From: Cellulomonas sp. ES6
GTDB taxonomy: Bacteria; Actinomycetota; Actinomycetes; Actinomycetales; Cellulomonadaceae
Direction of reading: 5' to 3'
Assembly: GCF_030053835.1 (NCBI RefSeq)
Contig: NZ_CP125655.1
Location: forward strand, 3,162,001 to 3,226,000
Length of the DNA stretch: 64,000 nucleotides
A program made the translations under genes and the position numbers. The notes beneath the pieces are model-generated. The model saw only the letters and a program-made list of their open reading frames with translations. It did not search any database and was not told the DNA's origin. Of this stretch, positions 11,729 through 29,452 are shown one piece after another. Numbering within the stretch: the stretch's first letter is position 1; each line of letters starts with the position of its first letter.

Positions 11729-11744
11729 GGAGGGGTGGACCGGG

Positions 11745-13172
11745 GTGTTCGTCGGACGATCGCGCGAGCTGGCCGCCCTCGAGCGGCAGATGGACGTGGT
11801 CCGTGAGGGCCGTAGGGCCGACGCCGGAGTGGCGGTGCTGCTGCGCGGACGCAGGCGGGTCGGCAAGTCACGCCTGGTGGGCGAGCTCGTCCGACGCCTG
11901 GGCGTGCCGACGGTGACCTTCCAGGCCGCCCGAGGCGCGCCGCTCGGTCAGGAGCTGGCGCTGCTCGCCCAGGCGGTCGCCGACTCGGACCTGCCGGCCG
12001 CCGACGTGGCACGGGACTCGACCCCCTCGACGCTGACCGCCGCGCTGACGCTGCTCGCGGCCGCGCTCCCGGACGACACGCCGTCCGTCGTCGTCCTCGA
12101 CGAGGTCCCCTGGCTGCTCGAGCAGGCGCCCGGCGCGGCCGGCGAGCTCCAGCGGGTGTGGGACGCCAGGCTCTCCCGCAAGCCGGTGCTCCTGCTGCTC
12201 CTGGGGTCCGACCTCGCGACGATGGAGCGTCTCACGGGCCCGGACCAGCCGTTCCACGGGCGCGCGACCGAGATGGTCCTCGACCCGCTGTCCCCGGCGG
12301 AGGTCGGCGGCATGTGCGGGGTCGGGGCCTTCGACGCCGTGGACGCGTACCTCGTCACCGGGGGCCTGCCGCTCGTCGCCCAGGAGTGGCAGTCCGGGGC
12401 GTCGCTGGAGCAGTTCCTCGAGTCGTCGTTCGGGACCTCCACCAGCGCCCTGGTCGTGTCCGGGAGCCGGGTGCTCGACGCCGAGTTCGGCGAGGGGACC
12501 ATCGCGCGGCAGGTCCTCACCGCCATCGGAGGGCGGGGTGAGCGCACGTTCTCCGGCATCCAGGGTGCCGCGCGGGGCGAGCCGCTCAACGCGACGACGC
12601 TGACCGGCATGCTCGGCACGCTCACCCGCAAGCGTGTGGTCGCGACGGACGACCCGCTCTCGACCAGGTCGGCGCCGCGCAACCGGCGGTACCGGGTCGC
12701 CGACCCGTCGCTGCGCTTCTGGCTCGCCTTCGTCGAGCCCGCGCTCGGGGAGGTCGACCGCGGCCGACCCGATCTGGCGCTGGCGCGCGTGCAGCGGGGT
12801 TTCGCCGCCTGGCGGGGCCGCGCGGTGGAGCCCATCGTCCGGGGTGCCCTGGAGAGGCTGCTGCCCGACGAGCGGTTCCCCGAGGTGACCCGGGTCGGCG
12901 GGTGGTGGCCGCGCAGCAACCAGCCCGAGGTCGACCTCGTGGGGACGGCCGGTGCGCCGGGGCCCGTCCACCTGGTCGGCACGGTGAAGTGGCGCTCCGG
13001 GGCACGGGTGCGGGCGGACGAGGTGCAGGCGCTCGCCGATGACGCGGTCGCGGTACCCGGGGTCACCGCGGGCACCTCCCTGGTGGCGGTGTGCCCGGCC
13101 GGCGCGGAGCCCGGCCTGCCGCTCGCGGCGACGTGGGGCGCGGAGGACCTCCTCGCAGCCTGGCCGCGTTGA
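11745..13172 (+). CDS. AAA ATPase with C-terminal DUF234 (degenerate PD-(D/E)XK) domain
   Basis: A 475-residue ATPase of the archaeal/bacterial DUF234 group. Walker A is GRRRVGKS (35-42) and Walker B is VVVLDEVPWLL near residue 110. A winged-helix part follows, then the C-terminal domain, which in relatives resembles a restriction-type nuclease fold. Here the segment PEVDLVG keeps the acidic residues, but the usual acidic-x-Lys motif reads GTVKWR (412-417): Thr413 stands where an acid is expected, so the nuclease-like site is probably inactive. The GTG start follows AAGGAGG by 11 bases. Function of the family is not settled; its AT-rich leader suggests acquisition by transfer. Confidence 0.85.
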   Translation: MFVGRSRELAALERQMDVVREGRRADAGVAVLLRGRRRVGKSRLVGELVRRLGVPTVTFQAARGAPLGQELALLAQAVADSDLPAADVARDSTPSTLTAALTLLAAALPDDTPSVVVLDEVPWLLEQAPGAAGELQRVWDARLSRKPVLLLLLGSDLATMERLTGPDQPFHGRATEMVLDPLSPAEVGGMCGVGAFDAVDAYLVTGGLPLVAQEWQSGASLEQFLESSFGTSTSALVVSGSRVLDAEFGEGTIARQVLTAIGGRGERTFSGIQGAARGEPLNATTLTGMLGTLTRKRVVATDDPLSTRSAPRNRRYRVADPSLRFWLAFVEPALGEVDRGRPDLALARVQRGFAAWRGRAVEPIVRGALERLLPDERFPEVTRVGGWWPRSNQPEVDLVGTAGAPGPVHLVGTVKWRSGARVRADEVQALADDAVAVPGVTAGTSLVAVCPAGAEPGLPLAATWGAEDLLAAWPR

Positions 13173-13229
13173 CGCCGTCGTGCTGCGCGCCTCCCGCCTG
13201 CGTGGATGACATGTCAGGCGCGCCTCGCC

Positions 13230-13235
13230 TACCAT
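13230..13235 (+). promoter_or_regulatory. Candidate -10 box for the LytTR/GHKL operon
   Basis: TACCAT at 13230-13235 is the best -10 match in the 178-bp gap before the response regulator gene. A perfect palindrome TGACATGTCA (13207-13216) lies just upstream, between the expected -35 and -10, and might be an operator. This gap holds no other gene that I can support. Confidence 0.35.
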
Positions 13236-13350
13236 CGGCGCGACTCGCCGGAGCCTCCTGCGCGAGGGGGCGTCACGCAGGTTCGACCGGGCTCCGGCCG
13301 GCCGGCGTGCCCCCACCGGTGCACGCCGCAGAACCCCCGGGAACGGCACT

Positions 13351-14064
13351 GTGATCAGGATCGGCATCGTCGAGGACGACCCCGCGAGCGCGGCGCTGCT
13401 CGTCGAGCACCTGCGCCGCTACGAGCGCGAGCACGACGAGGAGTTCCGCATCTCGGCGTTCCCCGACGGCGCGGACATCGTCGCGGCGTACCGGCCGGAC
13501 TTCGACATCCTGCTACTGGACGTCGAGATGCCGCGGCTCGACGGGCTCAGCGCGGCGTCGCAGATCCGGCTCGTGGACCCGGACGTCGTCATCATCTTCA
13601 TCACCAACATGACGCAGCACGCCATCAAGGGGTACGAGGTCGACGCGCTGAGCTACGTCCTCAAGCCGGTGCCGTACTTCGCGTTCGCGCAGGAGATCAA
13701 GCGCTCCGTGGCCCGGCTGCGGCGCCGCTCCGCCGACTACCTGCTGCTGACCGTCGACGGCGGCCTGGTGCGGGTCGCGACCGACGACATCGTGTTCCTC
13801 GAGTCGGCCAAGCACCGCACGACCGTGCACACGGTCGACGGCCGGCACTCGGTGGTCGGGCCGCTCAAGGCGCTCGAGGCGCAGCTCGAGGGCAAGAGCT
13901 TCTTCCGCAGCAACAGCGGCTACGTGGTGAACCTGCGGCACGTGCTCGGCGTGCACGGCAGCAGCTGCCTCATGGTCGGGGGCCACGACCTGCTGGTGAG
14001 CCGGTCCCGCAAGAAGGCGTTCCTGGCGGCGCTCACCGACTACCTCGGGGCGCGGCACGCATGA
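13351..14064 (+). CDS. LytTR-family response regulator
   Basis: A 237-residue two-component response regulator. The receiver domain (about 1-120) has the acidic pair in GIVEDD, phospho-acceptor Asp57 in LLLDVEMPRLDG, and the conserved Lys in VLKPV. The C-terminal LytTR DNA-binding domain (about 135-235) is recognised by VFLESAKHRTTVHT and SFFRSNSGYVVNLRHVLGV. LytTR proteins bind two imperfect direct repeats about 21-22 bp apart, usually as activators. The gene overlaps the downstream sensor kinase by ATGA. I propose its targets are the three repeat pairs in front of the GH3 genes downstream. Confidence 0.95.
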   Translation: MIRIGIVEDDPASAALLVEHLRRYEREHDEEFRISAFPDGADIVAAYRPDFDILLLDVEMPRLDGLSAASQIRLVDPDVVIIFITNMTQHAIKGYEVDALSYVLKPVPYFAFAQEIKRSVARLRRRSADYLLLTVDGGLVRVATDDIVFLESAKHRTTVHTVDGRHSVVGPLKALEAQLEGKSFFRSNSGYVVNLRHVLGVHGSSCLMVGGHDLLVSRSRKKAFLAALTDYLGARHA

Positions 14065-15416
14065 TCATGGAGACCCTGCCGGACATCCCGCGGGCGCTGA
14101 CGGGCGTCGCGGAGTGGCTGGCGTGCCTGGTGTACATCCTGCTGCGCCGGCAGCGGCTGCCCCGCCTGCGGTTCGCCGCCCTGGCCGCCGTGGCGCTGGT
14201 GGTGCAGGTGGGCGTGCAGGAGCTCGCGGACCAGCTCCCGCTCCAGCTGTGGACGGTCGGCATGGCCGCCGCCGTGGCTGCGATGTACGGGTTCATCCTG
14301 GCGGCGACGCGCGTCTCCCTCCGGGACGCCGGCTACTTCGCGGCGCGCGCGCTGGTGCTGGCGGAGCTGGTCGCCGCGCTGCACTGGCAGATGCACTGCT
14401 TCTTCTTCCTGCCGGACGGCCGGCCGGGACTGGTGTGGCAGGCGGCGTTCTTCGTGCTGGTCTACGCCGTCGCGTTCGTGGGGGTCTTCGTCGTCGAGGC
14501 GCGGCACTTCCGCCCGGCGCAGGCCCTGGACGTCACGCCGGGCGAGCTGGCCTCCGCGGTCGCGATCGCGCTGGTGACGTTCTTCATGAGCAACATCAGC
14601 TTCCTCAACGCCAACACGCCGTTCAGCGGGCGCCTGGGGCTCGAGATCTTCTACATCCGGACGCTGGTGGACCTGTGCGGGTTCGTGGCGCTGTACGCGC
14701 AGCAGGGGCAGCGCCTGCAGCACCGCGCGCGGGCGGAGGTGCAGGCGATCGACGAGATGCTGCGCCGGCAGCACGAGCAGTACCTGCAGTCCAAGCGCAG
14801 CATCGAGATCGTCAACCGCAAGTACCACGACCTCAAGCACCAGATCGGCGTGATCCGCGCGGAGGGCGACCCGGGCCGCCGCGCGTCGTACCTGGACGAC
14901 CTGGAGGCGAGCGTGTCCGGCTACGCCGCCCAGGCGGACACCGGCAACGGCGTGCTGGACGTCATCCTCACCACCAAGAGCATGGAGTGCGCCGAGCGGG
15001 GCATCGACCTGACGTACGTCGTGGACGGGGCGGTGCTCGACTTCATGTCCGCGATGGACGTCGCGGCGGTGTTCGGCAACGCGCTGGACAACGCGATCGA
15101 CGGCGCGCGGGCGGTGCCGGACCCGGAGCAGCGGCTCATCAAGGTCGCCGTCTACGCCCGGGACCGGTTCGCGCTGCTGACGGTCGAGAACTGGTTCACG
15201 GGCGAGCTCCGCACCGAGGACGGCCACATCGTGACCCGGCGCGCCGACCGGACGCGGCACGGCTACGGCCTGAAGTCCATCCGCTACACCGCGGAGAAGT
15301 ACGGCGGCTCCATGACGGTGAACGTCGAGGACCAGTGGTTCGTGCTGCGGGTGCTGCTGCCGCTGCCGCAGGGCCGCCCGGCGGCGGAGGCTCCGGCGGC
15401 CGCGCCCGCCCGCTGA
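14061..15416 (+). CDS. GHKL-type (AgrC-like) sensor histidine kinase
   Basis: A 451-residue membrane histidine kinase. The first 215 residues form about six hydrophobic helices (for example LACLVYILL, FAALAAVALVVQVGV, ALVTFFMSNISFL) with little extracytoplasmic sequence, as in AgrC-type sensors. A coiled-coil leads to the phospho-acceptor region YHDLKHQIGVI (His256), then the N-box NALDNAIDGA and the G-box HGYGLKSIRYTAEKYGG of the GHKL ATPase. It is cotranscribed with the LytTR regulator (ATGA overlap), a standard pairing. No signalling-peptide gene of the AgrD type is visible nearby, so the stimulus is open. Confidence 0.94.
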   Translation: MIMETLPDIPRALTGVAEWLACLVYILLRRQRLPRLRFAALAAVALVVQVGVQELADQLPLQLWTVGMAAAVAAMYGFILAATRVSLRDAGYFAARALVLAELVAALHWQMHCFFFLPDGRPGLVWQAAFFVLVYAVAFVGVFVVEARHFRPAQALDVTPGELASAVAIALVTFFMSNISFLNANTPFSGRLGLEIFYIRTLVDLCGFVALYAQQGQRLQHRARAEVQAIDEMLRRQHEQYLQSKRSIEIVNRKYHDLKHQIGVIRAEGDPGRRASYLDDLEASVSGYAAQADTGNGVLDVILTTKSMECAERGIDLTYVVDGAVLDFMSAMDVAAVFGNALDNAIDGARAVPDPEQRLIKVAVYARDRFALLTVENWFTGELRTEDGHIVTRRADRTRHGYGLKSIRYTAEKYGGSMTVNVEDQWFVLRVLLPLPQGRPAAEAPAAAPAR

Positions 15417-15422
15417 CGTCGG

Positions 15423-16667
<1,245 letters not shown>

Positions 16668-16720
16668 TCACGACGGCCCCGGATGCCGTGACCGGGCCGT
16701 GACCTCCTCGTGATCTCGCG

Positions 16721-16790
16721 GACTGTTCGTGGACGCAAAGCGACCGTCCGTGCACCCGGGCCCCTGCGTCGGCGGGCCGGTTCCTAGCGT
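16721..16790 (+). promoter_or_regulatory. LytTR-like direct repeat pair and -10 box, GH3 gene 1
   Basis: GACTGTTCGTGGACGC (16721) and GACCGTCCGTGCACCC (16742) match at 12 of 16 positions and start exactly 21 bp apart, the geometry of LytTR-family binding sites. A TAGCGT -10 box follows at 16785-16790, 43 bp after the start of the second repeat. The same arrangement precedes the other two GH3 genes. It lies in the 368-bp gap between glf and the first GH3 gene, where I see no further gene. Binding by the local LytTR regulator is inferred. Confidence 0.65.
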
Positions 16791-16939
16791 GACGCTCGCG
16801 GCACCGAGGACCAGGACGTCCAGGGGCCGCGATCGGTTCGCTCACTGCGCTGTGTCGCGCACGTGCCGCCCGGACCGCCCCGATGACGGAGCGGCCCGGC
16901 CGGGCGCTGACAGGGCCGACAGACGACAAGGGAAGGTCG

Positions 16940-19318
16940 ATGAAGACAACGAGAACGGCATACGTCAAGGGAGCGGCGGTCGTCGCAGGGGCCGCCCTGT
17001 TCGCCCTCACGGCGTGCTCGCCCGGCTCCTCCGACGAGGACAGCTCCGCAGGCAGCTCCTTCACCACCCGCGAGGTCTCCGACGGCACGACGGACTTCGT
17101 CGTCGTCACCAACCCGGGCGACGGCCCCGTCCTGTCGTACGGCAAGGACAGCGGCATCGAGCTGCTCACCGAGGAGGTCGACGGCCAGGAGCTCGCGTTC
17201 AAGGACATGAACGGCAACGGCGAGCTCGACACGTGGGAGGACTGGCGGGAGTCCGCGCAGGACCGCGCGGCCGACCTCGCCGGGGACCTGTCGATCGAGC
17301 AGATCGCCGGCCTCATGCTGTTCAGCTCGCACGAGCGCTCGCCCGCGGACGGGATCACGGACGCGCAGAAGGAGTACATGTCGCAGTCGCGCCTGCGCAA
17401 CGTGCTCAACGCGGGCCCGAACGACGTCGAGGCGAACGTCACCTGGTCCAACCAGCTCCAGGCGTACGCCGAGGAGCTCGCGACGGAGGACGAGCCGTAC
17501 GTCCCCGTGAACTTCAGCTCCGACCCGCGCTCCACCGCCGAGAGCGGCGGCAACTACAACGCGTCCGGCGACATCTCGCGCTGGCCGTCGAACCTGGGCC
17601 TCGCGGCGACGTTCGACACCGAGACGATGACCGCGTTCGCGCAGACCGTGTCGGAGGAGTACCGCGCCCTGGGCATCGGCACCGCGCTGAGCCCGCAGAT
17701 CGACCTGGCGACCGAGCCGCGCTGGCTGCGCGTCGACGGCACGTTCGGGGAGAACGTCGAGCTCGCGAGCGAGATGGCGAAGGCCTACGTGGACGGCTTC
17801 CAGACCACGCCGGGCACCGAGGGCTGGGGCTCCGAGTCGGTCAACGCGATGATCAAGCACTGGGCCGGTGACGGTCCGGGCGAGGGCGGCCGCGAGTCGC
17901 ACACCGAGGCCGGCAAGTACGGCGTCTACCCGGGTGACAACTTCGACGCGCACGCCGAGGTGTTCCTCGGTGCGATGGACTCCGCCGCGGTCATGACGGC
18001 CTACTCCGTCGCGCTCGACGCGGACGGCCAGCCGCTCGGTGGCGGGGACCGCATGGGCAGCGCCTACGACTCGTACCGCACGGGCCTGCTGCGGGAGAAC
18101 TTCACCGGCGTGGTCGTCACCGACTGGGGCGTGACGGCGGGCGGGAACACCGACCCCGACGCGCTCATCGGCACCTCCTGGGGCGCCGACGACCTGACCG
18201 TCGAGGAGCGCCACTACGCGATCCTGAAGAACGGCGTCGACATGTTCGGCGGCAACAACGCGGTCGAGCCGGTGCTCGCGGCGTACGACATGTGGCAGGC
18301 CGACTTCGAGGCCGGCGAGAACGACGTCGACGCCGACACCCGGTTCCAGGAGTCCGGCACCCGCATCCTCACGATGCTGTTCCAGCCCGGCCTGTACGAG
18401 AACCCGTACCTCGACCTCGAGCACTCGAAGGAGGTCGTGGCCAGCCAGGACAAGCTCGACGCCGGCTACCAGGCGCAGCTCGACTCGGTGGTCATGCTGA
18501 AGAACGACGCCGACACGATCGCGGCCGCCGAGGCGGGCGACTGGTCCGACAAGACGGTCTACATCCCGCGGAACTTCGACACCGGGCAGGCCGGCCTGTT
18601 CGGCCCGGGCGAGTACAGCGAGGGTCCCGGTCTGACCGTCGAGATCGCCGAGCAGTACTTCGCGGAGGTCGTCACGGACGAGGCCGTCGAGGACGCGGAC
18701 GGCAAGGTCACGAGCTACACCGCTCCCGACCTGTCCGACGTGGACCTGGTGCTCGTCGGCATGGACAGCCCCAGCAGCGGCGCCGTGTTCGCGAACTCGG
18801 GTCACGACGAGGAGACCGGCGAGTGGTACCCGCTGTCGCTCCAGTACCGCCCCTACACGGCTGACGGCGAGAACGTCCGGAAGGTCTCGATCTCCGGCGA
18901 CATCCTCCCGGACGGCACGCAGGAGAACCGGTCGTACTTCGGCCACACGTCGCGGACCTCGAACGAGTCGGACCTCGACGCGTTCGAGCGGGCCGTGGCC
19001 GCCGTCGAGGCGTCCGGCAAGGACATCCCGGTCATCACCGTCCTGAAGGCGAAGAACCCGACCGTCCCGGCCGAGTTCGAGGCGAAGTCCGACGCGATCC
19101 TCGTGGGCTTCGGCGTCAGCGACCAGGCGCTCATCGAGACCGCGATGGGCCTCAACGAGCCGCAGGGCCGCCTGCCGATCGGCTTCCCGGCGTCCATGGA
19201 CGCGGTCGAGAAGCAGCTCGAGGACGTCCAGGAGGACACGGAGCCGTACGTCGACTCGGCGGGCAACGCCTACGAGTTCGGCTTCGGCCTGAACTACGCG
19301 GGTCCGGTCACGGACTGA
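16940..19318 (+). CDS. Secreted lipoprotein GH3 glycoside hydrolase
   Basis: A 792-residue family 3 glycosidase (beta-glucosidase-like; exact sugar unknown) predicted to be a lipoprotein: signal peptide ending in lipobox LTAC with Cys26. After a linker comes an EF-hand-like loop DMNGNGELDTWE (89-100), which some GH3 relatives share, then the (beta/alpha)8 domain with KHWAGDGPGEGGRESH and the catalytic nucleophile Asp395 in VVVTDWG. The GH3 C-terminal domain follows (SVVMLKND, LVGMDSP). The ATG at 16940 has GGGAAGG upstream. Strong hairpins follow its stop. Local repeats suggest LytTR control. Confidence 0.92.
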   Translation: MKTTRTAYVKGAAVVAGAALFALTACSPGSSDEDSSAGSSFTTREVSDGTTDFVVVTNPGDGPVLSYGKDSGIELLTEEVDGQELAFKDMNGNGELDTWEDWRESAQDRAADLAGDLSIEQIAGLMLFSSHERSPADGITDAQKEYMSQSRLRNVLNAGPNDVEANVTWSNQLQAYAEELATEDEPYVPVNFSSDPRSTAESGGNYNASGDISRWPSNLGLAATFDTETMTAFAQTVSEEYRALGIGTALSPQIDLATEPRWLRVDGTFGENVELASEMAKAYVDGFQTTPGTEGWGSESVNAMIKHWAGDGPGEGGRESHTEAGKYGVYPGDNFDAHAEVFLGAMDSAAVMTAYSVALDADGQPLGGGDRMGSAYDSYRTGLLRENFTGVVVTDWGVTAGGNTDPDALIGTSWGADDLTVEERHYAILKNGVDMFGGNNAVEPVLAAYDMWQADFEAGENDVDADTRFQESGTRILTMLFQPGLYENPYLDLEHSKEVVASQDKLDAGYQAQLDSVVMLKNDADTIAAAEAGDWSDKTVYIPRNFDTGQAGLFGPGEYSEGPGLTVEIAEQYFAEVVTDEAVEDADGKVTSYTAPDLSDVDLVLVGMDSPSSGAVFANSGHDEETGEWYPLSLQYRPYTADGENVRKVSISGDILPDGTQENRSYFGHTSRTSNESDLDAFERAVAAVEASGKDIPVITVLKAKNPTVPAEFEAKSDAILVGFGVSDQALIETAMGLNEPQGRLPIGFPASMDAVEKQLEDVQEDTEPYVDSAGNAYEFGFGLNYAGPVTD

Positions 19319-19331
19319 CCCGTCCCGCCTC

Positions 19332-19365
19332 CCCGGGGCGGTCGGCACACGCCGGCCGCCCCGGG
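19332..19365 (+). terminator. GC-rich hairpin after GH3 gene 1
   Basis: A 15-bp stem (one G-T pair) with loop ACAC begins 13 bases after the stop codon: left arm CCCGGGGCGGTCGGC at 19332-19346, right arm at 19351-19365. No T-run follows, which is common for terminators in this type of genome. Confidence 0.6.
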
Positions 19366-19372
19366 CGGGACC

Positions 19373-19395
19373 GGCCGCGGGGTGGGCCCGCGGCC
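19373..19395 (+). terminator. Second hairpin before the small lipoprotein gene
   Basis: Perfect 9-bp arms GGCCGCGGG and CCCGCGGCC around a GTGGG loop. It lies in tandem with the preceding hairpin and 24 bases before the lipoprotein start, so it could attenuate or separate transcription of that gene. Confidence 0.45.
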
Positions 19396-19419
19396 AGCAC
19401 TCACCAAGGAGCGAACGAC

Positions 19420-19839
19420 GTGAAGCGCAACAAGGCCCTGACGACCGGCCTCTCCCTCGTGGTCGCCCTCACGGGCGTCTTCGGCCTGGCCGCGTGCGGC
19501 AGCGACGACAGCGGCAGCACCGGCGGGACCTCGTCCGAGCAGCAGGCGGCGTCGGAGTCCGACATCGCGGAGGACCTGGAGAACGCCCGGAAGGCCGTCG
19601 CCGACGCCCTGGCCGAGGACGACTCCTGGGCCCAGATCATGCTGGCGAGCGACGTGCAGGCGCCGACCGTGAAGTACGGCCTGCTGGTCGTGCCCTACAC
19701 CTACTCCGACGCCGCGTCCCGCATCCAGGGGACCATCACCATCGACGGCGGGAAGTACACGATCGACGGCGACTCCGCCGCGACCGGCCAGACCTGGCAG
19801 ATCGACCAGGACGGCACCATCACCGAGGTCACCGAGTAG
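19420..19839 (+). CDS. Small lipoprotein of unknown function
   Basis: A 139-residue predicted lipoprotein, signal peptide ending LAAC with Cys26, followed by a Ser/Gly/Asp linker. The mature part has a helical segment (ESDIAEDLENARKAVADALAEDD) and a small beta-rich region (YGLLVVPYTYSDAASRIQGTITIDGGKYTIDG). I do not recognise the family. The GTG at 19420 has AAGGAG upstream. Its place between two GH3 genes, the first also a lipoprotein, suggests a role at the cell surface with them, perhaps as an accessory or glycan-binding protein; that is inference. Confidence 0.75.
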   Translation: MKRNKALTTGLSLVVALTGVFGLAACGSDDSGSTGGTSSEQQAASESDIAEDLENARKAVADALAEDDSWAQIMLASDVQAPTVKYGLLVVPYTYSDAASRIQGTITIDGGKYTIDGDSAATGQTWQIDQDGTITEVTE

Positions 19840-19855
19840 CGGACGGTACCGGCCG

Positions 19856-19910
19856 ACCGTCGCGCGCGTGCGCCCGCCCGAGGGGGCCGGCGCACGCGCA
19901 CGGCGACGGT
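19856..19910 (+). terminator. Long imperfect hairpin after the small lipoprotein gene
   Basis: The left arm (19856-19874) pairs with 19889-19899 and 19903-19910, with a three-base bulge on the right side, to give a stem of about 19 bp. It starts 17 bases after the lipoprotein stop. Its right foot overlaps the first repeat of the LytTR-like site, so termination and the next promoter abut. Confidence 0.55.
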
Positions 19911-19973
19911 CCGTGCCGCAGAAACGACCGATCGTCCGGCCCGTCCGGACGACCCGGAACCCGCACCTAACCT
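19905..19973 (+). promoter_or_regulatory. LytTR-like direct repeat pair and -10 box, GH3 gene 2
   Basis: GACGGTCCGTGCCGC (19905) and GACCGATCGTCCGGC (19926) start 21 bp apart and match the pattern seen before GH3 gene 1. TAACCT at 19968-19973 is the -10 candidate, 42 bp after the start of the second repeat. GAGGAGG at about 19991 and the GTG start at 20004 follow. Confidence 0.6.
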
Positions 19974-20003
19974 GATCGCCGGCCGCACTCGAGGAGGACT
20001 GCA

Positions 20004-23000
20004 GTGAACGCCAGGGCGAAGAACGCCGACCGCGCGAAGAAGCGGATGTCGAACAAGAAGTTCCTGGGGATCTGGGTCCCCGTGCTCGCCCTGCTCACCG
20101 TGGTGACGGTCGTGGCGAACGTGGCGCTGGTCGTCGCGGGCGGCTGGGTCGCGTCCCAGCTCGGCTCCGGGACGTACGAGTTCACCAACTCCGCCGAGTC
20201 GGCGGACTGGGACACGGAGTACTACAGCTCGGACTACGACGGCATCGACGAGGTCGACGAGGCCGCGAAGGCGCTCGTCGAGGAGATCTCCGGCGCCGGC
20301 ATCGTCCTGGCGAAGAACGAGCAGGCCGCGCTGCCGCTGGCCGCGGGCGCGAAGGTCACCATGCTGGGCCGCGCCGCCGCGGACCCGGTCTTCGGCGGTG
20401 CGGGCTCCGGCTCGGTCGACACCACGACGGCCGTCGACGCGCGCCAGGGGCTCGAGAACGCGGGCTTCGAGGTCAACGACGCCGTCTACTCGGCCATCGA
20501 GGCGTTCGCGGCGGAGAACCCGCGCGGTCACATCGAGATGGACAACCCGGCCGCGTCCTCCTACACGATCGGCGAGATGCCGGTGGACGGCTACGAGGCC
20601 CAGGCGGCCTCGTTCGCGGACTACTCCGACGCCGCCGTGGTCTACCTGGGCCGTCCGGGCGGTGAGGGCGGTGACCTGACCCGCGACATGACGGACTGGG
20701 ACGACAACGCCGAGCCGGGCCAGCACCAGCTGGAGCTGAACAAGGACGAGAAGGACCTGATCGCGCTCGCGACGTCGAGCTTCGACACGGTGGTCGTGGT
20801 CGTCAACGCGTCCACCACGATGGAGATGGGCTCGCTGCAGCAGGACGCCGGGGTCGACGCGATCCTGCTGGCCGGCTCCCCGGGCGCCACGGGCTTCAAC
20901 GCCCTGGGCGGCATCCTGTCCGGTGACGTCAACCCGTCCGGTCGGACCGCCGACGTGTGGGCGGCGGACTTCACGGCCGACCCGACGTTCCAGAACTTCG
21001 GGGGGTACCTGTACGACAACCTGTCGGTGTCGTACCCGGTGTCCTCGATCGAGACGGCGACGTCGAACGCGACGGTGACCGACGAGGCGCCGTTCGTGAA
21101 CTACGCCGAGGGCATCTACATCGGCTACCGGTACTACGAGACCGCGGCGGTCGAGGGGTTCATCGACTACGACGAGGCCGTGGTGTACCCGTTCGGGTAC
21201 GGGCTGTCCTACACGGACTTCGCGTGGGAGGTCACCGACACCCAGGCCGGGGACGTGGACGGCACGATCGCGGTCACGGTCGAGGTCACCAACACCGGTG
21301 ACGTGGCCGGGCGCGACGTCGTGGAGCTCTACTACTCGGCGCCCTACACCCCGGGCGGCATCGAGAAGCCCGAGGTCGTCCTCGGCGGGTTCGACAAGAC
21401 CGGCGTCATCGAGCCGGGCGCGAGCGAGTCCGTCACCATCGAGATCGCGGTGGAGGACATGGCGTCGTACGACTACGCCGACGCCGCCGCCTACGTGCTC
21501 GAGGCCGGCGACTACGAGCTGACCGTCCGCACCGACTCGCACACGGTCGCCGCGGGCACCGAGCCGTTCACCTACACGGTCGACTCCGACGTCGTGTACT
21601 CGGGCGAGAACCACCGCGCGAGCGACGCCGCCGAGGTCACGAACCAGTTCGACGACGTCTCGGCGCAGTTCGTGTCCGAGCCGACCGACGGCAAGATCCT
21701 GTCGATGTCCCGCGCGGACTTCGCCGGCACGTTCCCCACGGCCCCGACGGCCGACCAGCTCGTCGCGGACGACGCGGTGGCCGCCGGCTTCGCTGCCTGG
21801 GACCACGAGGCGGCCGCCGAGGCGTTCGAGGGTGAGATGCCCACGACCGGCGCGGGCACCGACCTGTCCCTGATCGACCTGCGGGGCCTGGCGTTCGACG
21901 ACCCGAAGTGGGACGAGCTGCTCGACTCGCTGACGGTCGGCGAGATGACCGACATGCAGCTCAACGGCGCCTACCAGACGCCGGCGATCGGCTCGATCGG
22001 CAAGCCGGCGACCACCGAGCTCGACGGCCCGGCCGGGTTCTCCTCGTTCATCAACGCGTCCGTCAACGGCGTGGCGTACCCGTCGGAGTTCCTCATCGCG
22101 CAGACGTGGGACGTCGACCTGGGCCACGCCATGGGCCAGATGATCGGCAACGAGGCGCTCGCGAAGAACGTCCAGGGCTGGTACGCCCCGGCGGCGAACC
22201 TGCACCGCTCGCCGTTCGCGGGCCGCAACTTCGAGTACTACTCGGAGGACCCGTACCTGTCCGGCTCGATGATGACGGCGGTCTCCAACGGCGCGGCGAC
22301 GAAGGGCGTGTACACGACGCTCAAGCACTTCGCGCTGAACGACCAGGAGACCAACCGCGTCAACAACGGCATCGCCACCTGGGCCACGGAGCAGACGATC
22401 CGCGAGCTCTACCTGAAGCCGTTCGAGATGGCCGTCAAGGGCGTCACGATGGACGTGTCGTACCTGTCCGACGACGAGGGCACGCGCTCGACCACCACGG
22501 TCGGCTCGACCGCGGTCATGAGCTCGTTCAACCGGATCGGCGCGACGTGGGCCGGCGGCTCCGAGGCGCTCATGACGAACGTGCTGCGGGGCGAGTGGGG
22601 GTTCGAGGGCTTCGCCATCACGGACTTCAACCTGTACCCGTACATGAACCCGAACCAGGCGATCAGCGCCGGCACGGACCTGACCCTGACCTTCCAGCCG
22701 TCGAAGTCCTACGCGGACACCTCGTCGGCCAAGGCGGTCACGGACATCCGGACGGCGACGCACCACATCCTGTACACGGTCGCCAACTCCAACGCGATGA
22801 ACGGGCTCGCTCCGGGGGCGACGGTGTCCTACACGCCGCCGACCTGGGTGTACATCCAGATCATCGCGACGATCGTGATGGGCCTGCTGCTGCTGGCCGG
22901 TGCGTTCCTGGTGACGCGGCGCGTGCTGCGGCACCGGGGGGCGGGCGAGCCCGCCGCCGCGGGCGAGCCGGCGGTCGCCGGTGCCGGCCGCGGGGCCGAC

Positions 23001-23009
23001 GGCCGGTAG
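20004..23009 (+). CDS. Membrane-anchored GH3 glycoside hydrolase with swapped domain order
   Basis: A 1001-residue GH3 enzyme with its domains in reverse order. Hydrophobic helix 21-47 is followed by the GH3 C-terminal domain (GAGIVLAKNEQAALPL), a fibronectin-III-like domain (VEVTNTGDVAGRDVVELYYSAP) and then the catalytic barrel (YAPAANLHRSPFAGRNFEYYSEDPYLSG, KHFALNDQE, nucleophile Asp874 in AITDFN). A second hydrophobic helix lies at 948-970, before a basic, alanine/glycine-rich tail. Both ends should be cytoplasmic and the enzyme outside. Swapped GH3 proteins are known in other bacteria. The substrate is unknown. GTG start after GAGGAGG. Confidence 0.92.
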   Translation: MNARAKNADRAKKRMSNKKFLGIWVPVLALLTVVTVVANVALVVAGGWVASQLGSGTYEFTNSAESADWDTEYYSSDYDGIDEVDEAAKALVEEISGAGIVLAKNEQAALPLAAGAKVTMLGRAAADPVFGGAGSGSVDTTTAVDARQGLENAGFEVNDAVYSAIEAFAAENPRGHIEMDNPAASSYTIGEMPVDGYEAQAASFADYSDAAVVYLGRPGGEGGDLTRDMTDWDDNAEPGQHQLELNKDEKDLIALATSSFDTVVVVVNASTTMEMGSLQQDAGVDAILLAGSPGATGFNALGGILSGDVNPSGRTADVWAADFTADPTFQNFGGYLYDNLSVSYPVSSIETATSNATVTDEAPFVNYAEGIYIGYRYYETAAVEGFIDYDEAVVYPFGYGLSYTDFAWEVTDTQAGDVDGTIAVTVEVTNTGDVAGRDVVELYYSAPYTPGGIEKPEVVLGGFDKTGVIEPGASESVTIEIAVEDMASYDYADAAAYVLEAGDYELTVRTDSHTVAAGTEPFTYTVDSDVVYSGENHRASDAAEVTNQFDDVSAQFVSEPTDGKILSMSRADFAGTFPTAPTADQLVADDAVAAGFAAWDHEAAAEAFEGEMPTTGAGTDLSLIDLRGLAFDDPKWDELLDSLTVGEMTDMQLNGAYQTPAIGSIGKPATTELDGPAGFSSFINASVNGVAYPSEFLIAQTWDVDLGHAMGQMIGNEALAKNVQGWYAPAANLHRSPFAGRNFEYYSEDPYLSGSMMTAVSNGAATKGVYTTLKHFALNDQETNRVNNGIATWATEQTIRELYLKPFEMAVKGVTMDVSYLSDDEGTRSTTTVGSTAVMSSFNRIGATWAGGSEALMTNVLRGEWGFEGFAITDFNLYPYMNPNQAISAGTDLTLTFQPSKSYADTSSAKAVTDIRTATHHILYTVANSNAMNGLAPGATVSYTPPTWVYIQIIATIVMGLLLLAGAFLVTRRVLRHRGAGEPAAAGEPAVAGAGRGADGR

Positions 23010-23026
23010 CAGGCCGACCCGGGCGG

Positions 23027-23058
23027 GTCCCGGGGTGCGCTGCCCCGCACCCCGGGAC
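23027..23058 (+). terminator. Hairpin after GH3 gene 2
   Basis: Perfect 12-bp arms GTCCCGGGGTGC and GCACCCCGGGAC around an 8-base loop, 17 bases after the GH3 stop. First of two terminator-like hairpins in this 348-bp gap. Confidence 0.65.
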
Positions 23059-23070
23059 GACCCCGACCAC

Positions 23071-23120
23071 GCTCCCCGTCAGGCCGGTGGCGCCCACCAC
23101 CGCCGGCCTGACGGGGGAGC
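23071..23120 (+). terminator. Second, longer hairpin after GH3 gene 2
   Basis: A stem of about 17 bp with a single extra G on the right arm. The left arm begins GCTCCCCGTCAGGCCGG at 23071 and the right arm ends at 23120. It backs up the preceding hairpin, insulating GH3 gene 3, which then has its own promoter. Confidence 0.65.
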
Positions 23121-23210
23121 CCCACCGCGCACGACCCCGCGGCCGTCGCGCCGCCGGGGCGGTGCGTGCTGCCCGACGCGAGCCCCGACGGGGCCGTGAC
23201 CTCGGGCGAT

Positions 23211-23280
23211 GACCATTCATGCGCGGGTGACGACGGTTCGTGCACCCGCGCCCCGCGCGGCCGCACGACGGCGGCAGCCT
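23211..23280 (+). promoter_or_regulatory. LytTR-like direct repeat pair and -10 box, GH3 gene 3
   Basis: GACCATTCATGCGCG (23211) and GACGGTTCGTGCACC (23232) again start 21 bp apart. CAGCCT at 23275-23280 lies 43 bp after the second repeat, the same place as the -10 boxes of the other two genes. The rest of the 348-bp gap before the GTG at 23358 holds two hairpins and no gene that I can support. Confidence 0.6.
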
Positions 23281-23357
23281 TCAATCGGGGGCGCTCCGTC
23301 GCACCCCGCGAGCAGTCAGGGACGACGACGTCGCCCTCCAGCAACCAAGGAGACACC

Positions 23358-25823
23358 GTGCGACTCCACGGCGAGGACGCCGCCACCACCTCCGGGGGCG
23401 GGACCCACGTGACGACCGAGAGCCTGACGCTGCTGGAGAAGGCTGCGCTGCTGACGGGCAAGACGGTCTGGGAGAGCCGGGACCTGCCGCGGCACGGGGT
23501 GCGGTCGTTGTGGTTGGCGGACGGTCCGCACGGGGTACGCAAGCAGCTGGGTGCGGCTGATCACCTCGGCATCGCGGCGTCGCAGCCGGCGACGTGCTTC
23601 CCGACGGCGGCGGCGGTGGCGAACACGTGGGACGTGGAGCTGGCCGAGCGGGTGGGTGCTGCGTTGGGTGCGGAGGCCGCGGCGCAGGGCGTGGACGTGC
23701 TGCTGGGCCCGGGCCTGAACATCAAGCGCTCGCCGTTGGGCGGGCGGAACTTCGAGTACTTCTCGGAGGACCCGCTGCTGGCCGGGCGGATGGCGGCGGG
23801 GTACGTGCGGGGTATCCAGTCCCGGGGGGTGGCGGCGTGCCCGAAGCACTACGCGGCGAACTCCCAGGAGCTGCGGCGCATGGTGTCGGACTCCGTGGTG
23901 GACGAGCGCACGCTGCGGGAGATCTACCTGTCGGCGTTCGGGATCGTGGTGACGCAGGCCCGTCCCCGGTCGGTGATGTCGTCGTACAACCTGGTCAACG
24001 GGGTGTATGCGCATGAGGACCCGTTCCTGCTGGGCACGGTCCTGCGCGAGGAGTGGGGCTTCGACGGCGCGGTGATCTCCGACTGGGGCGGCTCGAACGA
24101 CGTGGTCGCCGCGGTCGCCGCCGGGGGCACCCTGGAGATGCCCGCCGCGGGCCTGGACTCCGCGCGTCAGGTGGTCGACGCCGTGCGCACCGGCCGGATC
24201 ACGCAGGCCGACGTCGACGCCCGTGCGGCCGAGGTGCTGCGCCTGGTCGCCGACGCGCGCCGCAGCCCGGCGCCGGAGGTGGACCCGCTCGAGCAGCACG
24301 CCCTGGCCCGGGAGGTCGCCGCGCGCTCCGCGGTGCTGCTGAAGAACGACGACGCGCTGCTGCCGCTGGCGCCCGGGACCCGCGTGGCCGTGGTCGGCGA
24401 CTTCGCCCGCACGCCGCGGTACCAGGGCGCCGGGTCCTCGGCCGTCAACCCGACCCGGCTGGACTCGGTGCTCGACGTGATCGGGGACTCGGGGCTGGAG
24501 ATGACGGCGTTCGCCGCCGGGTTCCGGCGCGACGGCACCCCGGACGCCGCGCTGCGCGCCGAGGCCGTCGAGGCGGCGCGCGGCGCCGACGTGGCCCTGC
24601 TGTTCCTCGGCCTGGACGAGATCGCGGAGTCCGAGGGCCTGGACCGCTCGACCCTCGCGCTGCACGCCGCGCAGGTCGAGGTGCTGCGCGCGGTCGCCGA
24701 GGTCAACCCCCGCACGGTCGTGGTGCTGGCGGGCGGCGGCGTCGTGGAGGTGCCGTGGCTCGGGTCCGCGCAGGCCCTCGTGCACGGGTTCCTCGCCGGG
24801 CAGGCGGGCGCGGGCGGGCTGCTCGACGTCCTCACGGGCGTCGTCAACCCCTCGGGCCACCTGGCGGAGACCGTCCCCGTGGTGCTGGCCGACACCCCGA
24901 CCGCCGGGACGTTCCCCGCGCAGGGTCGGACGGCGGAGTACCGGGAGGGGCTGTACGTCGGCTACCGGTACTACGCGACGGCCGGCGTGCCGGTGGCGTT
25001 CCCGTTCGGGTTCGGCCTGTCGTACACGACGTTCGCGCACTCCGGCCTGTCGGCGACGGCGGACGCCGCGACGGTGACGGTGACCAACACCGGCCCGGTG
25101 GCGGGCGCGGACGTGGTGCAGGTGTACGTGTCCCGGGTGTCGCCCGGGGTGCACCGTCCCGCGCGGACGCTCGCGGGGTTCGCGCGCGTCGAGCTGGAGC
25201 CGGGGGAGTCCGCGACCGTGACGGTCCCGCTCGGGGAGGCGGCGTTCCGGCACTGGGACGTCGCGTCCGGGGCCTGGCAGGTGGAGTCCGGCACGTGGCG
25301 TGTCCTGGCGGGTGCGCACGTGGACGACCTGCCGCTGTCGGCCGAGATCGAGGTCGCCGGCACCGTCCCGGCGCGTTCGGAGGACCTGCCCGAGCGCTAC
25401 CGCACCGGCGACGTGCAGGACGTGCCGGACGCGGACTTCGCCGCGCTGCTGGGCCGGCCGCTGCCGTCGGCGGCGTGGTCGGGGCCGCTGACGGTGAACG
25501 ACCCGCTGTCCGCGATGGCCGGCGCCCGTTCGCCGCTCGCCCGTCTCGCGTACCGGGTGCTGGCGTGGCGGCGGGACGTCGCGGACGGCCGCGGGAAGCC
25601 CGACCTCAACATCCTGTTCCTGCTCAACATGCCGTTCCGCGCGATCGGGAAGATGACCAACGGCATGGTCGACGCCGCGACGGTGGACGGGATCGTCCGC
25701 ATCGTCAACGGCCACCTCTTCTCGGGGACGGGCGCCACGGTGCGCGCCTTCCTCCGCAACCGCCGCGCCAACCGGCGCACCGCCCGGCAGCTCGCCGGCG
25801 ACGCCCCCGGCCGCAGCGCCTGA
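23358..25823 (+). CDS. Cytoplasmic GH3 beta-glycosidase with C-terminal extension
   Basis: An 821-residue GH3 enzyme in the usual domain order: catalytic barrel with ADGPHGVRKQ, KRSPLGGRNFEYFSEDP, KHYAANSQE and nucleophile Asp242 in VISDWGG; then the C-terminal domain (YQGAGSSAVNPT), a fibronectin-III-like domain (GFGLSYTTFAHS) and an extra tail (about 710-821, NILFLLNMPFRAIGKMTNGM). There is no signal peptide. The GTG at 23358 has AAGGAGA upstream; a GTG at 23409 is a possible alternative. It heads an operon with the GtrA-like and glycosyltransferase genes (37-base gap), so its substrate may be an internal or recycled oligosaccharide. Confidence 0.92.
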   Translation: MRLHGEDAATTSGGGTHVTTESLTLLEKAALLTGKTVWESRDLPRHGVRSLWLADGPHGVRKQLGAADHLGIAASQPATCFPTAAAVANTWDVELAERVGAALGAEAAAQGVDVLLGPGLNIKRSPLGGRNFEYFSEDPLLAGRMAAGYVRGIQSRGVAACPKHYAANSQELRRMVSDSVVDERTLREIYLSAFGIVVTQARPRSVMSSYNLVNGVYAHEDPFLLGTVLREEWGFDGAVISDWGGSNDVVAAVAAGGTLEMPAAGLDSARQVVDAVRTGRITQADVDARAAEVLRLVADARRSPAPEVDPLEQHALAREVAARSAVLLKNDDALLPLAPGTRVAVVGDFARTPRYQGAGSSAVNPTRLDSVLDVIGDSGLEMTAFAAGFRRDGTPDAALRAEAVEAARGADVALLFLGLDEIAESEGLDRSTLALHAAQVEVLRAVAEVNPRTVVVLAGGGVVEVPWLGSAQALVHGFLAGQAGAGGLLDVLTGVVNPSGHLAETVPVVLADTPTAGTFPAQGRTAEYREGLYVGYRYYATAGVPVAFPFGFGLSYTTFAHSGLSATADAATVTVTNTGPVAGADVVQVYVSRVSPGVHRPARTLAGFARVELEPGESATVTVPLGEAAFRHWDVASGAWQVESGTWRVLAGAHVDDLPLSAEIEVAGTVPARSEDLPERYRTGDVQDVPDADFAALLGRPLPSAAWSGPLTVNDPLSAMAGARSPLARLAYRVLAWRRDVADGRGKPDLNILFLLNMPFRAIGKMTNGMVDAATVDGIVRIVNGHLFSGTGATVRAFLRNRRANRRTARQLAGDAPGRSA

Positions 25824-25860
25824 CCGTGCCTGCGTCCCACCCGAACGAGAGAGACCTGCG

Positions 25861-26505
25861 ATGATCACCCGCCTCCGCGACGCCTGGCGTCGGTTCGCCG
25901 AGAAGCGCCCCGGCGTCGCCCAGTTCGTCGTGTTCTTCCTGCTGAGCAACGGCATCACGGTGCTGCAGCTCGCGCTGATGCCGTTGATCAAGTGGCTGTT
26001 CGGGATGACGTCGCTGGTCGACACCGCGTTCCAGGTCTGGCCCGTCGGGTCCAACCCGGACGGCTCGCAGTACTTCGTGTTCGACTACGCCGCGGGCGCC
26101 CTGCCGGCGGGCGGCGGCGGGCTGGCATACTTCCTGGCCGTGCAGATCACCCTGCTGGTGGCGCAGGTGATCAACTTCTTCGCCCAGCGGAACATCACGT
26201 TCAAGTCGAACACCTCGGTCGGCAAGGCCGCGGCCTGGTACGCCATCGCGTACGTGGCGATCACGATCCTCGCGGCCGCGGCGCAGGGCCTGTACAAGAC
26301 GCCGATCTACGACCTGTTCATCGAGACGTGGGGTCTGGGCGGCACGGGGGAGACCCTGGCGGACTTCGTCACGATGATCATCAACGCCGCGATCTCGTTC
26401 TGGGTGTTCTTCCCGATCTTCAAGGTCATCTTCAAGCAGGTCCCGGAGGTCGCGGCGCCGGCCGCAGCAGCCGACGCCGACGCCGGGGAGGTGCGGACGT
26501 CGTGA
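25861..26505 (+). CDS. GtrA-like membrane protein
   Basis: A 214-residue integral membrane protein with about four hydrophobic helices (QFVVFFLLSNGITVLQLALM, YFLAVQITLLVAQVINFFAQ, WYAIAYVAITILAAAA, TMIINAAISFWVFFPIF). NFFAQRNITFKSN resembles the conserved NF-x-x-R-x-x-F turn of GtrA proteins, which are thought to move lipid-linked sugars across the membrane. It is longer than a typical GtrA, with an extra loop after helix 1. The last codons overlap the glycosyltransferase start (GTGA), so the pair should work together on a lipid-linked sugar. Confidence 0.75.
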   Translation: MITRLRDAWRRFAEKRPGVAQFVVFFLLSNGITVLQLALMPLIKWLFGMTSLVDTAFQVWPVGSNPDGSQYFVFDYAAGALPAGGGGLAYFLAVQITLLVAQVINFFAQRNITFKSNTSVGKAAAWYAIAYVAITILAAAAQGLYKTPIYDLFIETWGLGGTGETLADFVTMIINAAISFWVFFPIFKVIFKQVPEVAAPAAAADADAGEVRTS

Positions 26506-27524
26506 CGAGCCCGCTGCTGACCGTCGTCGTCCCGGCCTACAACGCCCAGGACTACCTCGCCCGCGCGCTGGACTCCCTGGTCGACTTCGGCCCGGACCTC
26601 GAGGTCATCGTCGTCGACGACGGCTCCAGTGACGGCACCGCGGTGCTCGCCCACGAGTACGTCGACCGGTTCCCCGGCCTGGTGCGGCTGCTGCGCAAGC
26701 CCAACGGCGGGCACGGGTCGGCGATCAACGCCGGCCTGGACCACGCCCGCGGGGACTACCTCAAGGTCGTGGACGCCGACGACTGGCTCGACCGCGACGC
26801 CCTGGCCCAGGTCCTGACGACCCTGCGCGGGTTCCGGACCGGGGGGCAGGACGTGGACCTGCTGGTGGCGAACTTCGTCTACGAGAAGGTCGGCAAGCGC
26901 ACCAAGACCGCCGTGCGCTACGCCGGGGCCCTGCCGCGCGGGCGGGTCATCGGCTGGGACGCCACCGGCCGGTTCGCCAAACGGCAGTACCTGATGATGC
27001 ACGCGCTGACCTACCGCACCGCCGTGCTGCGCCAGGTCGGGCTGCGCCTGCCCGAGCACACGTTCTACGTCGACAACCTCTACGCCCTGGTCCCCCTGCA
27101 CGCCGTGCGGACCCTGTACTACCTCGACGTCGACCTCTACCGGTACTTCATCGGCCGGCCCGACCAGTCCGTGCAGGAGACCGTCATGCTGCGCCGCCTG
27201 GACCAGCAGCTACGCGTGAACTGGCTGATGCTCGAGCACGTCTCCCGCACCCCCGTGAGCGACCGGCGCCTGCGCCGCTACCTGCTGCACTACCTCGAGA
27301 TCACCTGCGCGGTCTCCTCCATCCTGCTCATCCGCGCCGGCACCCGCGAGTCCCTCACCGAGAAGGACCGCCTCTGGGACCGCCTACGAGCCGCCGACCC
27401 CTGGCTCTACCGCCGCGTGCGCTGGTCCGCCCTCGGACAGATCTGCAACCTGCCCGGGGCGGCCGGGCGCCGGGTGTCGGTGCTGGCGTACCGCGTCGCG
27501 CAGCGCGCCATCGGGTTCAGCTAG
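26502..27524 (+). CDS. Family 2 glycosyltransferase
   Basis: A 340-residue GT-A fold glycosyltransferase. LLTVVVPAYNAQDYLARALDSL and EVIVVDDGSSDGT are the nucleotide-binding start; KVVDADDWLDRDAL contains the metal-binding DxD. The C-terminal half is basic and helical, without clear membrane segments. The GTG start overlaps the GtrA-like stop. GT2 plus GtrA pairs usually make and flip bactoprenol- or polyprenol-linked sugars for surface glycans. The 3' end overlaps a convergent phosphoribosyltransferase gene by eight bases. Confidence 0.9.
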   Translation: MTSPLLTVVVPAYNAQDYLARALDSLVDFGPDLEVIVVDDGSSDGTAVLAHEYVDRFPGLVRLLRKPNGGHGSAINAGLDHARGDYLKVVDADDWLDRDALAQVLTTLRGFRTGGQDVDLLVANFVYEKVGKRTKTAVRYAGALPRGRVIGWDATGRFAKRQYLMMHALTYRTAVLRQVGLRLPEHTFYVDNLYALVPLHAVRTLYYLDVDLYRYFIGRPDQSVQETVMLRRLDQQLRVNWLMLEHVSRTPVSDRRLRRYLLHYLEITCAVSSILLIRAGTRESLTEKDRLWDRLRAADPWLYRRVRWSALGQICNLPGAAGRRVSVLAYRVAQRAIGFS

Positions 27525-28239
27525 GCGGGCCGGACCGCTCGGCCCCGCGTACCTGGGCGGCGTCGAGCACCCGGCAGACCTCCGCATCGGGCGTCGCGGC
27601 GAAGTCGCGGTACTCCTGACCGACCGCCGCGAACACCGTCGGCTCGCGCAGGCACACCAGCCCGTCGGCCTCCGCGGCCAGCAGCCGCGCGGTGTCCGGC
27701 GGGCACACCGGCAGCGCGACGACCACCCGGGCCGCGCCCTGCCGTCGCAGCGCCGCCACCGCGGCCCGGACGCTGGCGCCCGTCGCGGCCCCGTCGTCCA
27801 CCACCAGCACCGTGCGGCCGGCGACGGCCTGCGGTGCGCGGTCCCCGCGGTAGGCCGCCTCGCGCCGGCGGAGCTCCGCCGCCTCCGCGGCCCGGACCTC
27901 GGCGAACGCGTCCGGGCTCACGCCGGCGGCGCGCAGCACGGCGTCGTTGCGGACCTCCACGACGTCCCCCGCGATCCCGGCCAGCGCCCCCATGGCGAGC
28001 TCGGGGTGCCCCGGGAGGCCCAGCTTGCGGACCACCAGGACGTCGAGCGGCGCCCCGAGCGACGCGGCGACGGGGCCGGCCACCGGTACCCCGCCGCGCG
28101 GCAGCGCGAGCACGACGGCATCCGTCAGGCGGGGGTCGCCCGCCAGCACCCGCGCGAGCGCGGCACCGGCCCGCGCGCGGTCCGCGAACGGTTCCCCGCG
28201 CCTCGTCCGCCCGCCCCGGGCGGTCCCGGCGCCCGCCAT
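27517..28239 (-). CDS. Phosphoribosyltransferase-domain protein
   Basis: A 240-residue PRTase-fold protein. VLVVDDGAATGASVRAAVAAL is the PRPP-binding loop, preceded by VVLALPRGGVPVAGPVAASLGAPLDVLVVRKLGLPGHPELAMGA, a pattern of the ComF/PRTase-like proteins often found as stand-alone or hydrolase-fused forms in Actinobacteria. The base substrate is not evident and some members are thought to be regulatory. The downstream 191 bases (28240-28430 lies upstream of its ATG) hold no feature I can name. Confidence 0.85.
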   Translation of the reverse strand: MAGAGTARGGRTRRGEPFADRARAGAALARVLAGDPRLTDAVVLALPRGGVPVAGPVAASLGAPLDVLVVRKLGLPGHPELAMGALAGIAGDVVEVRNDAVLRAAGVSPDAFAEVRAAEAAELRRREAAYRGDRAPQAVAGRTVLVVDDGAATGASVRAAVAALRRQGAARVVVALPVCPPDTARLLAAEADGLVCLREPTVFAAVGQEYRDFAATPDAEVCRVLDAAQVRGAERSGPPS

Positions 28240-29427: not shown

Positions 29428-29452
29428 CGCTCCTCGGGTGGTGGGCCCGCGG

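Follow-up and report, generated by a model that had tools for sequence, protein, structure and literature searches.

In the LytTR regulatory systems (LRS) of Streptococcus mutans and other bacteria, a LytTR regulator is accompanied by a membrane inhibitor protein and controls its own expression, and the relevant sections of PMC6193735 describe these systems as distinct from two-component systems. The same sections report that LytTR repeats are generally separated by 12 bp, that a distance of 10 bp between the repeats and the −35 element is strongly favoured and, in their tables, that −35/−10 spacers run from 13 to 17 bp. In Butyrivibrio proteoclasticus, three LytTR response regulators were described in 2010, each near a GH3 enzyme that is secreted and has a membrane helix at its C terminus (PMC2914790, section on these genes), and the pertinent part of a Roseburia/Eubacterium survey places a LytTR regulator in an arabinoxylan locus without GH3 (PMC5320581). 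Here we analyse a stretch of 64,000 nucleotides from Cellulomonas sp. ES6 (NZ_CP125655.1, positions 3,162,001–3,226,000 of the forward strand; ‘the window’), in which a cluster at 13351–27524 encodes a LytTR response regulator, a GHKL sensor kinase, three GH3 glycosidases (GH3a, GH3b and GH3c), a small lipoprotein (SLP), a UDP-galactopyranose mutase (UGM), a GtrA-type membrane protein and a family 2 glycosyltransferase (GT2).

We propose that this LytTR/GHKL system is a dedicated activator of a glycan-editing regulon, with the regulator predicted to bind a paired repeat before its targets; we give this a probability of about 0.85, a figure that covers the regulatory part. A conserved operator with LytTR geometry is tied to the presence of the regulator and to GH3 and GtrA genes.

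Paired repeats before the GH3 genes

The regulatory genes and sites of the window are as follows.

13351–14064, + strand: LytTR response regulator, receiver at residues 5–108 and LytTR domain at 139–228 (PF00072, 58.8 bits; PF04397, 58.4 bits; both above cut-off)
14061–15416, + strand: GHKL sensor kinase (PF14501, 88.7 bits), overlapping the regulator gene, with a hydrophobic N-terminal half
16721–16753, + strand: operator pair 1, before GH3a (half-sites at 16721 and 16742), a pattern match conserved before GH3a
16785–16790, + strand: −10 element TAGCGT, 43 bp after the start of the second repeat
19905–19937, + strand: operator pair 2, before GH3b (half-sites at 19905 and 19926), a pattern match
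19968–19973, + strand: −10 element TAACCT, 42 bp after the start of the second repeat
23211–23243, + strand: operator pair 3, before GH3c (half-sites at 23211 and 23232), a pattern match and the weakest case

An earlier note on this DNA had reported these six half-sites, with 21 bp from start to start in each pair; all lie where it placed them, and our reading of the six copies agrees that ten of twelve positions are shared by at least five of the six. Its placing of a LytTR regulator and GHKL kinase just upstream is likewise borne out by Pfam, which together with NCBIfam was used for domain assignment of the nine cluster proteins. The kinase has four hydrophobic segments within residues 38–176, and the cluster regulator is the single LytTR-domain match in the whole genome. 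The repeat core, ACAGNTYGT, is close to what we take to be the LytTR binding consensus, reportedly set out by Nikolskaya and Galperin in 2002.

Single half-sites are not enriched (91 matches with ≤2 mismatches in the window, 118 expected). A pair pattern written from the window’s own three sites and allowed ≤3 mismatches matched six times in the 4.12-Mb genome, with one match for the backward-read control. The window sites had 0, 0 and 2 mismatches and the other three had 3 each, leaving the window’s three pairs as the only matches in the genome with ≤2 mismatches.

The pairs are conserved together with the regulator

With the window’s genome counted in each set, a regulator match was present in 19 of 60 congeners (E ≤1e-20) and, at E ≤1e-25, in 52/200 family members, 36/297 order members and 6/396 phylum members; the family, order and phylum searches, including the order-wide search for GH3b, scored part of the first-look candidates, so their counts may be underestimates. 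Among the 60 congeners, GH3b occurred in 20: the 19 that have the regulator and one more, G046, a genome that is 81% complete and retains, at the edge of a contig, the end of the kinase gene. Across the order, GH3b was nearly full-length, with an identity of at least 57%, in 24 members, and 23 of them had the regulator; the exception, with GH3b and no regulator match, was a 73% complete genome (G809). Where records carry a name, most of the loci belong to Cellulomonas or Cellulosimicrobium. The regulator, kinase, GH3a, SLP, GH3b, GH3c, GtrA and GT2 genes are repeatedly found side by side, within the family and in further families of the order, and in most loci compared, in both settings, the kinase orthologue adjoins the regulator. 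Gene order is often the same among relatives; elsewhere the GH3 block is inverted or moved, and some clusters lack UGM, SLP or single GH3 genes.

A matrix made from the six window half-sites was run over related loci at 20 spacings, leaving out L066, L067 and L153 (the window’s own locus and its nearest relatives). For GH3a, spacing 21 scored best in 30/45 upstream regions on the forward strand and in 3/45 on the opposite one; for GH3b the figures were 32/65 and 11/65. Other-strand matches at spacing 21 also occurred in 15/36 UGM and 13/75 regulator upstream regions; these likely come from divergent GH3 sites.

A broader matrix was applied to 84 loci (excluding L089, a duplicate place, and L155, which has no cluster gene; some rows are close relatives). 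Some of these loci had themselves contributed half-sites to it, and the window-only matrix and the out-of-family scan given below are the cleaner tests of the operator. At spacing 21 the broader matrix found a pair before GH3a in 45/48 loci, GH3b in 32/67, GH3c in 15/63 and GtrA in 5/68, while each of the 19 other spacings gave 0 to 4. No pair was found in these loci upstream of UGM (0/39), kinase (0/68), SLP (0/48) or GT2 (0/67). The regulator gene itself was preceded by a pair in 2/78 cases, both of them extra regulator copies in L082 and L083, and no sign of autoregulation was seen. In these two loci, from two genomes, the cluster includes a second LytTR regulator (around 7404) that has an operator-like pair of its own, which may point to a regulatory cascade.

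Split by kinship, the pair precedes GH3a in 31/34 family loci and 14/14 outside the family, GH3b in 30/50 and 2/17, and GH3c in 5/44 and 10/19. The five family GH3c pairs are those of L066, L067, L075, L153 (the window’s own) and, more weakly, L152; a further one lies in an unlinked locus, L245. From these differing counts, GH3a emerges as the constant target, the other pair-bearing genes varying by lineage.

When a matrix made from family sites was applied to 20 loci outside the family, 27 pairs were found at spacing 21, 23 of them before GH3 genes, and the remaining spacings between 14 and 39 yielded from 0 to 5 apiece; two of the 20 (L179 and L194) had no pair with the broader matrix. A loose threshold over whole loci gave 69 pairs at spacing 21 and 6 to 31 at other spacings. 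Conservation at orthologous loci, on which the earlier note had staked its proposal, is thus seen within and beyond the family.

The half-site in more diverged loci drifts to GACAGGTTGTGC. For co-drift of LytTR residues with half-site letters there was a trend only, with no column over threshold separating two site classes. Among eight GH3 upstream regions of distant phylum loci, one (L197) has a perfect 12-base repeat of different sequence, 21 bp apart, and the other seven gave no convincing pair. Some LytTR–kinase pairs outside the class adjoin GH3 genes; because of these neighbours and the different repeat of L197 (1/8 regions), the LytTR–GH3 association may predate the present motif. In L196 and L199, also outside the class, two or three LytTR–kinase pairs are interleaved with GH3a-type genes, which suggests repeated regulator–GH3 modules. 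The LytTR–kinase pairs of Lachnospiraceae (L173) and Clostridium (L174) had no GH3 match within the stretch examined.

GtrA genes and distant GH3 genes carry the site

A strict pattern, ACMGNTYGTGC-N10-ACMGNTYGTGC with ≤1 mismatch, was run with a backward-read control over 79 of the 83 listed regulator-bearing genomes (G001, G140, G171 and G862 were omitted, and four phylum genomes outside the order are not listed). It gave 75 matches in 49 of the 79 genomes, against 21 for the control, and 67 of the 75 lay ≤450 bp before GH3a (30), GH3b (16), GH3c (7) or GtrA (14). The glycan-assembly genes (GtrA/GT2) therefore belong to the regulon. The earlier note had one sensor pair driving three GH3 genes; the regulon is not confined to them. 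A GH3-only regulon was rejected, since GtrA genes carry the site, and in three genomes (G078, G098 and G015) the GtrA gene follows a pair in a 20-kb stretch where nothing matched GH3.

Sites are also retained away from the regulator. In one genus, GH3 genes far from the regulator keep the site: in G128 the regulator lies at 2.44 Mb and the GH3 cluster with its site at 0.44 Mb on the same contig, and in G157 the corresponding positions are 0.25 Mb and 2.20 Mb. A local expansion of the regulon is seen in G794 (L248, 10712–18994), where an operator-like pair (≤2 mismatches) stands before each of four GH3a-type genes in a row. As a separate observation, a perfect strict match in G125 (L091, 10001) is flanked on one side by a second LytTR regulator of diverged sequence and on the other by an ABC exporter gene, where a GH3 gene would have been expected.

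The 41 congeners without a regulator match yielded four strict matches versus 14 for the control, and the sole perfect one was in G046, which has the cluster; the remaining 40 genomes hold three. The pairs all but vanish where the regulator is absent. A chance origin is ruled out by the whole-genome pattern count, the spacing controls and the regulator-less congeners. Random placement across the genome, one of the outcomes that the earlier note counted against its proposal, is not what is found: three pairs in ES6 have ≤2 mismatches, and GH3 or GtrA genes follow 67 of the 75 strict matches.

Promoter architecture and a proposed mechanism

We aligned 75 non-redundant sites on the first repeat, without using the −10 for site choice. 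Information is concentrated in the two repeats (wider consensus GACAGNTYGTGC), an AA at +17/+18 and the −10, and the flanks are nearly flat. A T at +64 in 73% and at +69 in 82% of the sites forms a −10-like T....T hexamer at a fixed distance, while the −35 position is nearly flat in these sites, with no conserved −35. If the 9-bp core of the second repeat (+22 to +30) is followed by a 10-bp gap and a 17-bp spacer, the −35 falls at +41 and the −10 at +64, so the observed −10 stands where the LytTR promoters of PMC6193735 would place it. Window sites 1 and 2 fit the published LytTR promoter geometry.

In the proposed mechanism, by analogy with its family, the membrane kinase would receive a signal and phosphorylate the regulator. 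A regulator dimer would then bind the two 12-bp direct repeats, 21 bp (two helical turns) apart, at a site delineated by its conservation, with the second repeat ending about 10 bp before the expected −35. Because a conserved T....T −10 is present and no −35 is conserved, we infer that the bound regulator recruits RNA polymerase to a promoter that would be weak on its own; the architecture is observed and activation is the predicted step. Targets would be GH3a–SLP, GH3b and, in this species, probably GH3c–gtrA–GT2.

The long GH3a leader, between the −10 and the start codon, has a further conserved element.

16792–16840, + strand: possible hairpin in the GH3a leader with a GGAC...GTCC core, conserved in sequence

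This GGAC-loop-GTCC element is conserved in GH3a orthologues, and several relatives’ leaders have GTGCGC...GCGCAC farther on. The leader may be a structured RNA, with modest folding support: the mean folding z was −1.12 over 17 sequences, pair counts did not exceed those of shuffles (the tested structure was poorly placed on the sequence alignment) and RNAalifold gave almost no consensus fold. No known RNA family was found at Rfam gathering scores in window positions 10000–30000.

Three GH3 types and their neighbours

The remaining genes of the cluster are listed below, with the start codons adopted for the GH3 genes.

15423–16571, − strand: UGM (TIGR00031 over cut-off, PF03275), near the cluster in 40 loci
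16940–19318, + strand: GH3a, exported lipoprotein-type GH3 (PF00933, PF01915), start ATG 16940, conserved in relatives
19420–19839, + strand: SLP, small lipoprotein of unknown fold, no Pfam family
20004–23009, + strand: GH3b, domain-swapped GH3 (C-domain-first Pfam order PF01915–PF14310–PF00933), start GTG 20004
23358–25823, + strand: GH3c (PF00933, PF01915, PF14310), no signal peptide or hydrophobic segment, start GTG 23358
25861–26505, + strand: GtrA-type membrane protein (PF04138, just above cut-off)
26496–27524, + strand: GT2 (PF00535), overlapping gtrA

The GH3 N and C domains score over the Pfam cut-off, and the presumed catalytic Asp, which we assign from the motif as we understand it, is kept in all aligned sequences (Asp395 of GH3a in 45/45, Asp874 of GH3b in 60/60 and Asp242 of GH3c in 61/61). 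GH3a begins with a hydrophobic segment that ends, as read by eye, in a lipobox-like cysteine; GH3b has one hydrophobic segment at each end (18–51 and 945–975) and a third at 252–270. The three forms named in the earlier note (lipoprotein, double-anchored swapped form and cytoplasmic enzyme) hold by Pfam order and hydrophobic segments, and the three types are predicted to occupy three places: lipoprotein, membrane-anchored and cytoplasm.

GH3c, gtrA and GT2 are tightly packed. In SLP, Cys26 is invariant in 20 aligned orthologues, as are 20 columns that include PT.KY and DQDG, and the gene sits between GH3a and GH3b in 44/51 of its places among the loci compared. Downstream of the cluster, on the opposite strand (29453–30088), lies a protein that weakly matches Peptidase_M73 (camelysin, PF12389).

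Weighing the function of the regulon

Several results weigh against the reading of these pairs as operators of one glycan-editing regulon. With the window-only matrix, spacing 21 was best for GH3c in 9/61 regions but spacing 18 in 13/61, and for GtrA spacing 21 was best in 6/64 on the forward versus 7/64 on the other strand; because that matrix does not show them, the GH3c and GtrA cases are carried by the broader matrix and the strict pattern. About half of the GH3b and three quarters of the GH3c upstream regions have no pair, and 4 of the 27 out-of-family pairs precede no cluster gene. Among the strict matches, one precedes an ABC exporter, two have no assigned gene and five fell outside the context check (one of these, in G098, is identical in sequence to the site before GH3a in G078). 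Thirty of the 79 regulator-bearing genomes, the window’s included, have no strict match; the window sites depart from the wider consensus, and their greater degeneracy accounts for the lack of a match in ES6. The hexamer after the third pair, at 23275, is CAGCCT, a poor −10, and the surface-glycan role considered below is drawn from gene content only. The earlier note had placed a site before each GH3 gene and a −10 after each pair: both hold for GH3a and GH3b, with TAGCGT at 16785 and TAACCT at 19968, but the third site is weak, given its −10 and the 5/44 family GH3c pairs.

As to what the regulon does, remodelling of a cell-surface glycan in some form is plausible, if somewhat short of an even chance. 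It is likelier than feeding, because GtrA and GT2 genes, often beside UGM, accompany glycosidases of three compartments and the cluster has no transporter. In its specific form, which we advance tentatively, one LytTR system would control builders of lipid-linked sugars (GtrA and GT2, with UGM nearby) together with three trimming GH3 enzymes, one in each of three compartments. The cell would in this way set the decoration of its own surface glycan, and the operator would hold the regulon together after its genes scatter.

The system could instead be a nutrient-utilisation switch, a possible but less than probable reading in which the kinase senses a plant or fungal oligosaccharide and the three GH3 enzymes break it down, one outside the cell, one at the membrane and one in the cytoplasm. 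Cellulomonas and its relatives, in which most of the loci lie, are known plant-polymer degraders, and the GH3 proteins match β-glucosidase-type structures. Sensing of carbohydrate linkages was also proposed by the Butyrivibrio authors, in the section of PMC2914790 concerned. Against this, no sugar-transporter family was matched by Pfam among the nine proteins of 13351–27524 (genes farther away were not screened for one), and GtrA genes, biosynthetic by family, carry the same operator, a sharing that favours surface-glycan editing over feeding. It is improbable that the system is a peptide-pheromone circuit with glycan genes as incidental output, although a GHKL kinase with several membrane segments and a LytTR regulator together make up the AgrC/AgrA layout. 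It is very improbable indeed that the pairs mean nothing for regulation and simply reflect common descent or the copying of promoter DNA: most sites do belong to a conserved cluster, and close relatives are among the rows, but conservation is concentrated in the repeats, the spacer AA and the −10, matches occur at unlinked GH3 and GtrA loci, and the sites nearly drop out together with the regulator.

Comparison with described LytTR systems

The operator motif allows regulon members to be searched for in related genomes. For a two-component system that had not been characterised and that several actinomycete families have retained, it also defines the operator and the predicted targets exactly enough to be tested. 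Our searches of open-access papers found no account of this operator or regulon. The earlier note’s claim of no described precedent was nevertheless too strong, as LytTR–GH3 proximity in B. proteoclasticus had been published in 2010 (PMC2914790, in the section cited above). LytTR repeat geometry is already established, and the LytTR–GH3 link has precedent.

B. proteoclasticus and ES6 both have a LytTR response regulator with a secreted GH3 nearby that carries a membrane helix at its C terminus; the difference is that the section in question describes no operator and no GtrA or GT2, and places the genes in polysaccharide utilisation loci (PMC2914790). In ES6 the combination of glycosidases with a sugar transporter that marks such loci in Gram-positive bacteria is not seen among the nine cluster proteins. 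With LRS the present system shares two 9-bp repeats, which in the sections of PMC6193735 on repeat spacing are mostly 12 bp apart and 10 bp from the −35; it differs in having a receiver domain and a kinase and in showing no autoregulatory site, and so falls outside the LRS definition.

It is a LytTR two-component system by its receiver–LytTR fusion, its adjacent GHKL kinase and its direct repeats about 21 bp apart upstream of promoters. In these respects it resembles the regulators of the AgrA, VirR and BtsR kind, with a receiver and LytTR domain, a GHKL partner, 9-bp cores 12 bp apart and a −10 where expected. Unlike them, it has GH3 and glycan-assembly genes as its predicted targets, with no site seen before the regulator’s own gene, and in our reading it joins LytTR repeats, LytTR–GH3 neighbours and GtrA–GT2 glycan genes into one regulon.

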